64,000 bases of DNA, taken from contig NZ_JAYMGZ010000003.1 in NCBI RefSeq assembly GCF_037078405.1, positions 1 through 64,000 of the forward strand, read 5' to 3'. The stretch is from Haloarcula sp. DT43. Lineage in GTDB: Archaea; Halobacteriota; Halobacteria; Halobacteriales; Haloarculaceae. A model generated the notes under the pieces. That model ran no database searches. It was given only the letters and a program-made list of their open reading frames with translations, and was not told the origin of the DNA. The translations under genes and the position numbers were made by a program. Shown piece after piece: positions 15,993 through 21,225 of this stretch (position 1 is its first letter; each line of letters begins with the position of its first letter).

Positions 15993-16014
15993 AGCATGTC
16001 GATTTAAACCGTCA

Positions 16015-16023
16015 GTATATAAA
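16015..16023 (-). promoter_or_regulatory. TATA box of the sugar ABC transporter operon
   Basis: On the minus strand TTTATATAC is centred 27 bp before the ATG of the binding-protein gene (15992), an almost ideal haloarchaeal TATA box for a leaderless transcript. The AT-rich stretch extends to about 16055. Between here and the IclR start (16228) no gene is visible. Confidence 0.65.
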
Positions 16024-16201
16024 TGTTGTCGATAATAGAACGTGAGGAATAATCAAGTGGGGCCTCACTGCCATTTGGCCGGCGACGACTCGGGAAGGCT
16101 ACGTGACGGGCCCGCCCGAAGTCACTCCTTAACTCCCGCGACGGTTACTGTCCCCGCCGTCGCGACTGCCCGGACGGTCGTTCCGTTCTGGTGAACAGAG
16201 C

Positions 16202-16206
16202 TATAT
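16202..16206 (+). promoter_or_regulatory. TATA-like box of iclR-type regulator gene
   Basis: TATAT is centred 25 bp before the ATG at 16229. This argues that translation starts there and not at the upstream in-frame ATG at 16205, which overlaps the box itself. Confidence 0.5.
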
Positions 16207-16228
16207 GAGTGGGCGGTCATGTCGGAGT

Positions 16229-16990
16229 ATGGCACCGGAGGAGAACACAATCACCGCGACCAGAACGTCGCTCCGGATAGTCGAGGCGCTGAAGCGACTG
16301 GACGGGGCAGGGACGACGGCGGTGGCCAACCACCTCGACATCGCCAAGAGCACCGTCCACAACCACTTGCGGACGCTGGAAGACGAGGGGTACATCACGA
16401 AGGAAGGCAGCGCCTACCGCGTGGGACTGCGGTTCCTGGAACTGGGGGAGTACAAGCGCCACCGGATGGACATCTACGAGACCGCCCGGCCGGAGGTCGC
16501 GTCGCTGGCCGAGGAGACGGGCGAGATGGCCAACGTGGCCGTCGAGGAACACGGCGAAGGCGTGTACCTCGCCCGCGCCGAGGGGACCGAAGCCGTCACG
16601 GTCGACACGTACGGCGGCAAGCGAGTGAACCTCCACTGCACCGCGCTCGGGAAGGCCATCCTCGCGGAACTGCCCGAGGAGCGGGTCGACGCCATCGTCG
16701 ACGAGCACGGCCTGCCGGCCCGGACGGAAAACACCATCACGGACCGGGCGGCGCTGAAGTCGGAACTCGCCGACATTCGGGAGCGGGGTCACGCGTGTGA
16801 CCACGAGGAGCGGCTCCCGGGCCTGCGGTGTGTCGCCGCTCCGGTCACTTCGGTGGACGGGGACCCGGTGGCGGCGCTCAGCGTCTCCGGACCCACGAGC
16901 CGTATCAAGGGCGACCGCTTCCACGAGGAAATCCCCGAACTGCTCCAGTCGGCGGTCAACGTCGTCGAAATCAACCTCACCTACTCCTGA
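16229..16990 (+). CDS. IclR family transcriptional regulator
   Basis: This 253-residue DNA-binding repressor or activator has an N-terminal winged helix-turn-helix (SLRIVEALKRLDGAGTTAVA and then NHLDIAKSTVHNHLRTLEDEGYI, about residues 15-65). A C-terminal effector-binding GAF-like domain carries GEMANVAVEEHGEGVYLARAEG near 105, LHCTALGKAILAEL near 140 and CVAAPVTSVDGDPVAALSVSGP near 205. Members sense small carbon metabolites. It lies divergent to the sugar ABC transporter operon, the usual position for a local regulator, so it probably controls that operon and perhaps the whole island. The start is chosen from the TATA-like box. Confidence 0.92.
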   Translation: MAPEENTITATRTSLRIVEALKRLDGAGTTAVANHLDIAKSTVHNHLRTLEDEGYITKEGSAYRVGLRFLELGEYKRHRMDIYETARPEVASLAEETGEMANVAVEEHGEGVYLARAEGTEAVTVDTYGGKRVNLHCTALGKAILAELPEERVDAIVDEHGLPARTENTITDRAALKSELADIRERGHACDHEERLPGLRCVAAPVTSVDGDPVAALSVSGPTSRIKGDRFHEEIPELLQSAVNVVEINLTYS

Positions 16991-17084
16991 GCCGTCCGCC
17001 CGGCGTTCGCCAGACGCGTCGGTTCGTTCCGCTGTACTGAACATCCGTGGTATGGCCCCTCATGACACGGATGCTCGACTCGTC

Positions 17085-17104
17085 TAACAGAAGTACGTCT
17101 GTTA
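17085..17104. repeat. perfect inverted repeat between convergent genes
   Basis: TAACAGA (17085-17091) and TCTGTTA (17098-17104) are perfect inverted copies around a 6 bp spacer. The element lies in the 203 bp gap between the ends of the IclR gene and the convergent amidohydrolase gene. It could be a bidirectional termination structure or a protein binding site. The arms are not GC-rich and no T-run follows, so a classic terminator is doubtful. Confidence 0.4.
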
Positions 17105-17193
17105 CAATTCCCAGGTTTGCCGTTTGCTTTCGCTGTCGATACGTTCAGCCCTGCGAAACGGGCGTTCGCTCAAGTGCGTCGTCCCGGCCCCGC

Positions 17194-18060
17194 TCACTCG
17201 TGAATCCGCTCGAAGGTCCGGTGGGCCAGATACGAGTACTCGCGGGCCGAGAGGAACGGCACCGCCTCGACCCACGAGAGGCAGTCCTCGTAGCCCGCCC
17301 AGTCGTCCATCCACGGGTAGTCGGACCCGAGCATGAGGCGCTCGGCCTCGAACCAGTCCACGAGGTTGCGGACGTACCCCCACATGTCCTCGTAGGGCCA
17401 CTCCGCCCCGCTGGACCGGGGGAGCGAACTCACCTTGACCGCGACGTTGTCGTGGGCAGCCAGCGCCTCGAACCCCGTCCAGGGGGCCGCGTCCGGGGCC
17501 GTCGTCTCGTCGGGGTAGGCCATGTGGTCGACGACTAGCTGTACGTCCGGATGCCGTTCGGCGAGCGTCGCCACCATCGGGAGCTGCTGGGCCTTCGGGA
17601 AGACGAACACGGCCGTTCCCTGCTCGGCGGCCTCGGCCCAGACCGGTGCCAGTTCTTCGTCGAGTATCCAGTCGGCGGTCCGATTTAGCTCCGTCGAGTG
17701 TTCCTCGTAGTCGAGGCAGGCGTGCATCCGGACGCCGAGCATCCGGTCGTGGCCGACGACCCGGCGGAGCCGCGCCCGGACCTCGTCGGGGTCACCGTAG
17801 AAGTCCATCAGGCCAACTCCCCACAGCCGGTCCGGGTACGCCTCGATGGCCCGCATCGTGTACTCGTTGGCTCGCACGCCGCGGCCGTACATCGGCGTCG
17901 TCACCATCACGGCTTCCTCGACGCCGGCGGCGTCCATGTCCGCGACGAGGTCGTGGGCGGTGTAGACCCCCTCCCAGCCCGGCGGGAGCACTGTCTCGGG
18001 CCAGGGTAGCTCCGCGGTGTCCGGTCCCCACGTGTGGGTGTGTGTATCGACGAAGCGCAT
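17194..18060 (-). CDS. amidohydrolase-2 family protein, sugar lactonase-like
   Basis: This protein of about 288 residues has the metal-dependent TIM-barrel fold of amidohydrolase family 2, which includes L-fuconolactonase and L-rhamnono-gamma-lactonase. Key residues are the metal motif HTHTWG near residue 6, LGVRMHACLDYEE near 105, the metal His in LVVDHMAYP near 180 and the Asp in MLGSDYPWMDD near 240. Beside an enolase-superfamily dehydratase, hydrolysis of a sugar lactone is the likely role. The ATG at 18060 starts MRFVDTHTHT. An in-frame GTG two codons upstream (18066) is an alternative with better spacing from a GGAGG at about 18079-18083. It is transcribed divergently from the dehydratase. 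Confidence 0.83.
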   Translation of the reverse strand: MRFVDTHTHTWGPDTAELPWPETVLPPGWEGVYTAHDLVADMDAAGVEEAVMVTTPMYGRGVRANEYTMRAIEAYPDRLWGVGLMDFYGDPDEVRARLRRVVGHDRMLGVRMHACLDYEEHSTELNRTADWILDEELAPVWAEAAEQGTAVFVFPKAQQLPMVATLAERHPDVQLVVDHMAYPDETTAPDAAPWTGFEALAAHDNVAVKVSSLPRSSGAEWPYEDMWGYVRNLVDWFEAERLMLGSDYPWMDDWAGYEDCLSWVEAVPFLSAREYSYLAHRTFERIHE

Positions 18061-18062
18061 CG

Positions 18063-18134
18063 TCACGCCGGAGCGTCGCCTCCCATGACGACGGCGGCCT
18101 CACTACCGGAGCCGACCTGTGTGTGTTTGACCAT
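18063..18134 (-). CDS. possible 23-residue leader peptide or micro-ORF
   Basis: A minus-strand ATG at 18134 opens a 23-codon frame (MVKHTQVGSGSEAAVVMGGD then APA) that ends in TGA at 18063-18065. The stop lies 2 bp before the amidohydrolase ATG and overlaps its alternative GTG start. The ATG sits inside GTGGTATGG, the same 9-mer that holds the dehydratase ATG on the other strand. A T-rich TATA-like stretch (TTTCATTT, about 18159-18166) lies near 28 bp upstream of it. It may be a short coupled leader peptide, a remnant, or chance. No homology is recognised. Confidence 0.3.
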   Translation of the reverse strand: MVKHTQVGSGSEAAVVMGGDAPA

Positions 18135-18219
18135 ACCACGGCAAACTACACACCACGGTGAAATGAAACCTCGGGAGACCCCACGTTTATCTCCCGTGGT
18201 GTCGCATAGTGTGGTATGG
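18131..18219. promoter_or_regulatory. divergent promoter with nested dyad symmetry
   Basis: CCATACCAC (18131-18139) and its inverse GTGGTATGG (18211-18219) flank the region. Inside them ACACCACGG (18150-18158) and its inverse CCGTGGTGT (18194-18202) form a second pair. CGGGAGA (18172-18178) and TCTCCCG (18190-18196) form a third perfect inverted repeat that brackets the TATA-like TTTAT (18186-18190) of the dehydratase gene. Each half thus reads CCATACCAC-N8to10-ACACCACGG. The arrangement fits binding of a dimeric regulator that controls both divergent genes, plausibly the IclR protein. Confidence 0.55.
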
Positions 18220-19391
18220 CACCGGAAATAACCAGCATCGAGTCCGTCGAGTTCGCCTACCCCATCGAGGACGTCGGGACAGACCAGCACGGGTTCAACC
18301 TCGTGTACGAACCGGGCGCGGTAACGGAGCGGAAACTGTTCGCCGTCAAGGTTCACACCGACGAGGGCATCACGGGCGAGTACGTCGGCGGCAACTCGCC
18401 TGGAGCTGCCCAGATAAACACCTTCGCCGACTACCTCGTCGGGAAGAACCCGCTCGAACGCGAGCGCCACTGGAGCGAGGTGAAGCGGGCGCTGCGGAAG
18501 TACGACCGGATGGGTATCGGCCCCATCGACATCGCGCTGTGGGACTACGCCGGCAAGAAGTACGACGCGCCCATCCACGAACTGCTCGGCACCTACCGGA
18601 CCCGACTGCCCGCCTACGCCTCCACGTATCACGGGGACGAGAACGGCGGGCTCGACACGCCCGCGGCCTTCGCCGACTTCGCCGAGGACTGTCGCTCGAT
18701 GGGGTACGGCGGGTTCAAAATCCACGGCTGGGGCGGCAGCGAGGGGGCCCGGGACCTGGACCGCGAGATTGCGGCGGTCCACGCCGTCGGCGAGGCTGTC
18801 GGCGACGAGATGGACCTGATGCACGACCCCGCCTGCGAACTGGAGACGTTCGCCGACGCCCTGAAGCTCGGGCGCGCGCTCGACGAAGAGGGCTTCTTCT
18901 GGTACGAGGACCCCTACCGGGACGGCGGCGTCTCACAGCACGCCCATCGGAAACTCCGCCAGGCCCTCGACACCCCCATCCTCCAGACCGAACACGTCCG
19001 CGGGCTGGAGCCGGCGACGGACTTCGCGGCCAACGAGTCGACGGACTTCCTGCGCGCGGACCCGGAGTACGACGGCGGCATCACCGGCGCGATGAAGCGG
19101 GCGAAGGTCGCGGAAGGGTTCGGCTTGGACGTGGAGTTCCACGCCCCGGGACCCGCCCAGCGCCACTGCATCGCAGCGATTCGCAACACGAACTACTACG
19201 AACTCGCCCTGGTCCATCCCGACGCGCCCAACACCCAGCCGCCGGTGTACGAGGGCGGCTACTCCGACATGCTCGACACGGTCGACGACGACGGCACGGT
19301 CGAAGTCCCCGACGGACCGGGCCTGGGCGTCGACTACGACTGGGCGTACATCGAAGACAACGCCACGGGGAGCGTTCACACGTACGACTGA
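18216..19391 (+). CDS. mandelate racemase/muconate lactonizing enzyme family dehydratase
   Basis: This 391-residue enolase-superfamily enzyme probably dehydrates a sugar acid (aldonate) to a 2-keto-3-deoxy acid. The capping domain covers about residues 1-125 and the barrel the rest. Barrel residues visible are Lys in GGFKIHGW near 168, metal ligands Asp in DLMHDPACE near 205, Glu in FWYEDPYRDGG near 230 and Glu in LQTEHVRG near 258, and a late His in VEFHAPGP near 308. The substrate cannot be fixed by motif. L-rhamnonate, L-fuconate or a similar acid is plausible given the lactonase-like neighbour and the mutarotase. The gene ends 1 bp before the next start, so the two are co-transcribed. Confidence 0.88.
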   Translation: MAPEITSIESVEFAYPIEDVGTDQHGFNLVYEPGAVTERKLFAVKVHTDEGITGEYVGGNSPGAAQINTFADYLVGKNPLERERHWSEVKRALRKYDRMGIGPIDIALWDYAGKKYDAPIHELLGTYRTRLPAYASTYHGDENGGLDTPAAFADFAEDCRSMGYGGFKIHGWGGSEGARDLDREIAAVHAVGEAVGDEMDLMHDPACELETFADALKLGRALDEEGFFWYEDPYRDGGVSQHAHRKLRQALDTPILQTEHVRGLEPATDFAANESTDFLRADPEYDGGITGAMKRAKVAEGFGLDVEFHAPGPAQRHCIAAIRNTNYYELALVHPDAPNTQPPVYEGGYSDMLDTVDDDGTVEVPDGPGLGVDYDWAYIEDNATGSVHTYD

Positions 19392-20823: not shown

Positions 20824-21225
20824 ATGGACATCACAAGCGACTGTTCGCGACTCTCCGTCGAAGGGCCCGACGAGTACTTCACAGGCGAGACGCGGATAGA
20901 CCCCCTGTTCGACTCGCAGGCCGAGGCTCGCGCCGCGGCGGCGAGCGTCACGTTCGAACCGGGCGCTCGCACCGCGTGGCACACCCACCCGCTGGGGCAG
21001 CGACTCATCGTCACGAGCGAGTGCGGGCTCGTCCAGCGCGAGGGCGGAGACATCGAGCGGATTCGGGCGGGTGACGTGGTCTGGTTCCCGCCGGGTGAAA
21101 AGCACTGGCACGGCGCGACGCCGGAGAAGGCGATGACCCACATCGCCGTCCAGGAGGAGCGAGACGGCGAGGCCGTCACCTGGCTGGACCACGTCACTGA
21201 CGAGGAGTACCAGCCCGAATCCTGA
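20824..21225 (+). CDS. cupin domain protein
   Basis: This 133-residue single-cupin protein has metal-binding motif 1 [17 protein letters not shown], with His at about residues 58 and 60 and a later Glu, and motif 2 [16 protein letters not shown] with His near 98 and 100. The group resembles small cupins annotated near sugar catabolism and mandelonitrile-lyase-like cupins. The role may be sugar-acid isomerisation or lactone chemistry, but this is inference. It is followed after 81 bp by an aldo/keto reductase on the same strand. Confidence 0.85.

Follow-up and report, generated by a model that had tools for sequence, protein, structure and literature searches.

Nested inverted repeats and an apparent short-chain dehydrogenase remnant at a divergent lactonase/dehydratase promoter of Haloarcula sp. 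DT43

The window analyzed here, i.e., the whole stretch of 64,000 nucleotides (64 kb) from Haloarcula sp. DT43 (contig NZ_JAYMGZ010000003.1, positions 1 to 64,000), contains a sugar catabolic cluster. Positions 18063-18219 are surrounded by genes for an ABC transporter with a sugar-binding protein, an IclR regulator, an amidohydrolase-type lactonase, an enolase-superfamily dehydratase, and a Gfo/Idh/MocA oxidoreductase (Table 1). Both the lactonase and the dehydratase fall below the NCBIfam equivalog cut-offs. A mechanically called GTG start of the lactonase at 18066 finds no support: the alignments of most homologues begin at residue 2 or 3, and the relatives use the ATG. By locus, the nearest named relatives are H. 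halophila, H. litorea, H. pelagica, and Haloarcula sp. GH36, all of the Haloarcula group. At 15993-16228, before IclR, this genome lacks a transaldolase and a PfkB kinase, and at 16991-17193, after it, a universal stress gene, all of which Haloarcula sp. GH36 and H. halophila have. This suggests that this part of the cluster was either reduced more than once in this genome or enlarged in the relatives. The cluster also encodes a cupin (20824-21225) that scores 190.7 bits against the NCBIfam model for (R)-mandelonitrile lyase, whose cut-off is 140.

Table 1. Features in and around the divergent lactonase/dehydratase promoter (positions are those of the window)
Feature	Position	Strand	Remarks
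IclR-associated dyad GTTC-N9-GAAC	16180..16196		Precedes the IclR promoter; orthologues carry it exactly or nearly so
IclR-family regulator	16229..16990	+	PF01614, 2.7e-43; orthologues co-occur with the cluster
Three-part dyad element	17026..17159		Likelier IclR-associated operator; GTTC-N9-GAAC 17026-17042, TAACAGAAGTACGTCTGTTA 17085-17104, GTTC-N9-AAAC 17143-17159 (one mismatch); same parts and spacing in relatives' clusters
Lactonase, amidohydrolase family (PF04909)	17194..18060	-	Probable start ATG 18060-18058, 2 bp past the stump stop
23-codon frame (MVKHTQVGSGSEAAVVMGGDAPA, then stop), apparent SDR stump	18063..18134	-	About 17 first and 7 last codons, in-frame fusion; collinear with the relatives' SDR N-terminus and C-terminus/stop
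Outer 9-bp pair	18131-18139 / 18211-18219		CCATACCAC / GTGGTATGG, perfect inverted
Outer arm GTGGTATGG over stump start codon	18131..18139	-	Identical only in H. pelagica (G394); other relatives differ
Place of the relatives' GTGGYGAG-like SDR-promoter block	18148..18157	-	Here CGTGGTGTGT; GYGAG in 10/10 relatives, absent here
Middle 9-bp pair	18150-18158 / 18194-18202		ACACCACGG / CCGTGGTGT, perfect inverted
TATA-like GGTTTCATTTCAC of the former SDR promoter (now stump and lactonase)	18158..18170	-	Aligned to GGATTCAT / GGTTTCAT in relatives
Inner 7-bp pair	18172-18178 / 18190-18196		CGGGAGA / TCTCCCG; encloses TTTA of the dehydratase TATA box, which the right arm adjoins
Dehydratase TATA box region GTTTAT, approximate	18185..18190	+	GTTTAT kept in nearly all relatives
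Block GGTGTCGCATA between TATA and start	18198..18208	+	Consensus GGTnTCtCaTg, conserved; best candidate regulatory site of the dehydratase promoter
Outer arm GTGGTATGG over dehydratase start codon	18211..18219	+	GTGG part in no relative
Sugar-acid dehydratase, enolase superfamily (MR_MLE)	18216..19391	+	Opens the divergent operon; ATG 18216-18218

A preliminary description of this DNA had reported three perfect inverted pairs of 9, 9, and 7 bp nested in 89 bp, the innermost bracketing the TATA-like box of the dehydratase. All of this was confirmed, with a left spacer of N10 and a right one of N8 between arms, within the range of 8 to 10 given there. Likewise, the outer copies do contain the start codons of the dehydratase and of the 23-codon frame (at 18134), and the stop of this frame is separated from the lactonase ATG by CG only (2 bp). 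In shuffles of the 89 bp, at least two perfect 9-bp inverted pairs arose in 97 of 20,000. The two 9-bp pairs are the sole nested case across the window, and 18% of dinucleotide-shuffled 64-kb windows hold at least one such case (mean 0.22). Nested 9-bp pairs are thus unusual locally but not across 64 kb. Furthermore, since GTGGTRT is common to all four long arms, these do not represent four independent events. In the whole genome, there are just two copies of the tandem half-site CGTGGTnT-N7..12-GTGGTATGG, and both lie at this locus. The tandem spacings of the two copies differ (15 and 18 bp), and a tandem half-site with a single fixed spacing gave no match in the window.

The 23-codon frame was previously put forward as a possible leader peptide. 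In ten genomes of the genus and in Haloarcula sp. GH36, its place is occupied by an intact short-chain dehydrogenase (SDR) gene. The ten include the three closest genomes, with dehydratases 92-94% identical, and in all ten the SDR lies between the lactonase and the divergent dehydratase. The relatives' SDR has 268 codons and PF13561/PF00106 domains, and is annotated as 'glucose 1-dehydrogenase' in H. halophila, H. pelagica, and Haloarcula sp. GH36. In the closest genomes its stop lies 2 bp before the lactonase ATG, exactly as the stop of the 23-codon frame does. Residues 1-18 of the frame align without gaps to SDR residues 1-18 with 8-9 identities, a match equaled in 1, 0, and 0 of 20,000 shuffles for the three closest genomes. 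Specifically, MVKHTQVGSGSEAAVVMGG aligns codon for codon to MVGHTQYDFSGETAIVTGS of H. pelagica with 9/18 of the first residues identical (0/20,000 shuffles as good). At the other end, VMGGDAPA-stop aligns to the SDR end VSGGGNLE-stop. The corresponding DNA identities are 31-36/51 at the 5′ end and 20-23/32 at the 3′ end, the latter including the stop and the lactonase ATG. As read from the sequences, the two ends join at a GTCA found in both parts. The rest of the genome holds no SDR of more than 40% identity.

Both ends of the frame thus match the two ends of the intact gene at the same place, the N-terminal match being strong and the C-terminal one moderate. The simplest account of these alignments is that the frame is the stump of the SDR gene after in-frame loss of about 735 bp. 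As a counterweight, the stump is short, and its 3′ match is modest taken alone. Retention of the frame without selection would have a one-in-three chance. The deletion is known from one genome and one assembly, and because a single genome carries it, an assembly error may lie behind it. No conserved 23-codon peptide was found at this place in the relatives, where the full SDR gene stands instead. The RNA over the stump is predicted to be no more stable than shuffled sequences (z +1.0), an Rfam search gave no match, and nothing in the predicted RNA points to an attenuator.

Alignment of the promoter across eleven genomes separates what is conserved from what is private to this genome. On the dehydratase side, block GGTnTCtCaTgg is conserved between GTTTAT and the start. 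On the SDR side, the relatives share a conserved ACCGGtGGaTTCaT and a GYGAGacg block, so that both promoters carry a conserved block at the equivalent position. Here, CCCGAGG stands in place of ACCGGTGG, and GYGAG has changed to GTGTG. The latter change yields a perfect match to the dehydratase block, i.e., the middle 9-bp pair. Correspondingly, a change on the dehydratase side (TGTGGTATGG versus, e.g., AGGCTATGG in relatives) yields the outer pair. The left arm of the inner pair stands at the place of CCACCGGTGG, a palindrome that the relatives conserve, exactly or in close variants, just upstream of the SDR TATA-like box (L086:10296-10305 and relatives) and that is lost here. A palindromic form of the dehydratase block, GGTATC-N4-GATACC, was dropped, as it fits some relatives (G227, G368) and not this genome.

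The perfect arms therefore depend on substitutions seen only in this genome, and the tandem half-site was found in 0/31 other genomes of the genus. Because neither the arm-making changes nor the half-site has a counterpart in the relatives, the perfect symmetry is, as judged from these alignments, a trait of this lineage, and the arms form no conserved operator. One regulator may still serve both promoters, given their conserved blocks at equivalent positions, but the arms as reported are not the site conserved for it. Upstream of related catabolic genes, the sister genomes likewise lack the half-site, an outcome that the preliminary description had itself named as telling against a switch. 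Since the inverted DNA is not common to the relatives, it is probably not a conserved regulatory switch. The conserved feature is two ordinary promoters, probably of the leaderless type. In keeping with the divergent promoter claimed earlier, start codons follow TATA-like boxes by about 25 bp on both strands.

Overall, the geometry is real and its explanation is an ordinary one, a divergent promoter pair and a gene remnant. With high confidence, we regard the locus as an ordinary haloarchaeal divergent promoter adjoining an SDR relic left by the in-frame deletion, with putative leaderless starts, presumed reinitiation at the lactonase, and arms of recent, lineage-specific origin. Of this account, the sequences show that the frame is a relic and that the arms are not conserved. 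The ancestral layout would have had a dehydratase operon on the plus strand and an SDR-lactonase operon on the minus strand, with the divergent promoter between them. The deletion would then have taken nearly the whole SDR, leaving its start codon, about 17 N-terminal and 7 C-terminal codons, and the stop. We infer that both transcripts start on the ATGs or only a few bases from them, about 25 bp past the TATA-like boxes; in Haloferax, 72% of protein-coding transcripts are leaderless (PMC4983044). The lactonase would have no leaderless start of its own, and ribosomes finishing the stump would reinitiate there, as they formerly did behind the full SDR. The perfect arms represent recent, lineage-specific similarity, and the GGTnTCtCaT block is the best candidate regulatory site at the dehydratase.

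Reinitiation has been demonstrated to couple overlapping genes in Haloferax (PMC6728339). For coupling in E. coli, the final 15 nt of the upstream gene were enough (PMC10666635). The tests of the latter study showed a need for overlaps or very short distances. The 2-bp gap between the stump stop and the lactonase ATG is short but not an overlap. The stump may still couple its translation to that of the lactonase. In relatives, GGAG directly precedes the SDR stop, but this genome has lost it. Because this element and the SDR promoter blocks GYGAG and ACCGGTGG are lost, the stump-lactonase unit may be poorly expressed, silent, or decaying. Alternatively, the stump may have been kept as a minimal translational coupler after SDR loss, its promoter being rewired to resemble that of the dehydratase. 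The start, about 23 codons, and the stop would then have been retained because the lactonase lies on a leaderless mRNA and would have no other supply of ribosomes. We put this forward tentatively and consider it rather doubtful.

The regulator proposed in the preliminary description was the IclR protein encoded at 16.2 kb. One part of that proposal stands, as the gene tracks the cluster: its orthologues (73-85% identity) are present, in the same cluster, in all ten other genus genomes that have the SDR/dehydratase divergent pair and in none of the remaining ones. This co-occurrence supports a role for IclR in the cluster. The other part fared worse, since the IclR-associated motifs are absent from the divergent promoter. 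The dyads next to the IclR gene, about 1-2 kb from 18063-18219, include a three-part element in the order GTTC-N9-GAAC / TAAC-N4-GTAC-N4-GTTA / GTTC-N9-GAAC, whose outer sites are 116-117 bp apart with centers 55-62 bp from the middle one. TAAC-N4-GTAC-N4-GTTA has 15 copies in the genome versus 0 for a reversed control, and 7 of these adjoin an IclR gene. At 18040-18240, neither TAAC-N4-GTAC-N4-GTTA (allowing up to 4/12 mismatches) nor GTTC-N9-GAAC (up to 2/8) was found. As the motif was itself assigned to IclR from its co-location with IclR genes, its absence lowers the likelihood of regulon membership rather than settling it.

From their position, the dyads are presumably bound by IclR proteins, and the dyad system is possibly a regulator operator of the genus. 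This strongly conserved system near the genus IclR genes offers a better target for regulator work than the arms do. TAAC-N4-GTAC-N4-GTTA was also considered as a general haloarchaeal IclR site and set aside, as a class-wide search placed it largely in this genus and a few others, and not in all IclR-rich genomes. A second fixed arrangement has GTTC-N9-GAAC centered 26.5 bp from TAAC-N4-GTAC-N4-GTTA (L152 4093-4137; L155 2485-2529). It lies near a cluster with an aldehyde dehydrogenase and a dehydratase paralogue and an ABC transporter, and in other genomes too.

Among the other readings, direct control of this divergent promoter by the IclR protein through other, weaker contacts survives best. 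The distribution of the orthologues argues for it, and haloarchaeal IclR proteins are described as activating neighboring sugar genes in the part of the literature considered here (PMC11519228). However, both dyads lie near IclR and neither lies here even with mismatches allowed, and we take such control to be possible without favoring it. Somewhat unlikely, in our view, is that conversion or template switching among neighboring inverted near-repeats increased the likeness of the arms in this lineage, with no regulatory role. Both 9-bp pairs do rest on changes unique to this genome, namely GYGAG to GTGTG at the SDR promoter and TGTGG ahead of the dehydratase ATG, and these bring the arms closer to each other. 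Nevertheless, the changes are few and undated, independent point changes explain them equally, and nested pairs arise in 18% of shuffled windows. The symmetrical switch of the preliminary description, one dimeric regulator on tandem arms repressing or activating both divergent starts together with a regulatory leader peptide, is very unlikely: the arms are rightly placed between TATA and start on both sides, at positions where both promoters carry conserved blocks, and both genomic copies of the half-site lie here, yet this half-site is missing from the 31 other genus genomes, the outer dehydratase arm and the inner pair are not conserved, the tandem spacings are unequal, the leader is the SDR stump, and the predicted RNA stability is not unusual.

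Our analysis recasts an apparent regulatory leader as a gene loss, which close relatives put into context. It is also a warning for the interpretation of short frames and inverted repeats from a single genome. Furthermore, the locus could serve as a simple test case for the question whether a translatable stump must be kept when a haloarchaeal operon loses a leaderless first gene.

As in bacterial attenuators with leader peptides, a short frame opens the operon here; in contrast to them, it has no unusual RNA structure, no conserved peptide, and the apparent origin of a gene remnant. The haloarchaeal IclR-type activators of sugar catabolism XacR, GacR, RhcR, and MscR resemble the present case in that the IclR gene lies inside a sugar catabolic cluster, whereas the motif associated with our candidate regulator is absent from the divergent promoter. 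In termination-reinitiation of Haloferax volcanii (Huber et al. 2019, PMC6728339; 2023, PMC10666635), the upstream frame likewise ends at the downstream start, so that reinitiation is possible. Here, however, that frame is a gene relic with a 2-bp gap in place of an overlap. The Haloarcula clusters with SDR-lactonase and dehydratase (H. halophila DFY41, H. pelagica YJ-61-S, GH36) share the gene order, the dehydratase TATA box, and the stop-to-start spacing before the lactonase. Haloarcula sp. DT43 departs from them in that its SDR is cut to 23 codons, the SDR promoter blocks are lost, and the arms are perfect only here.
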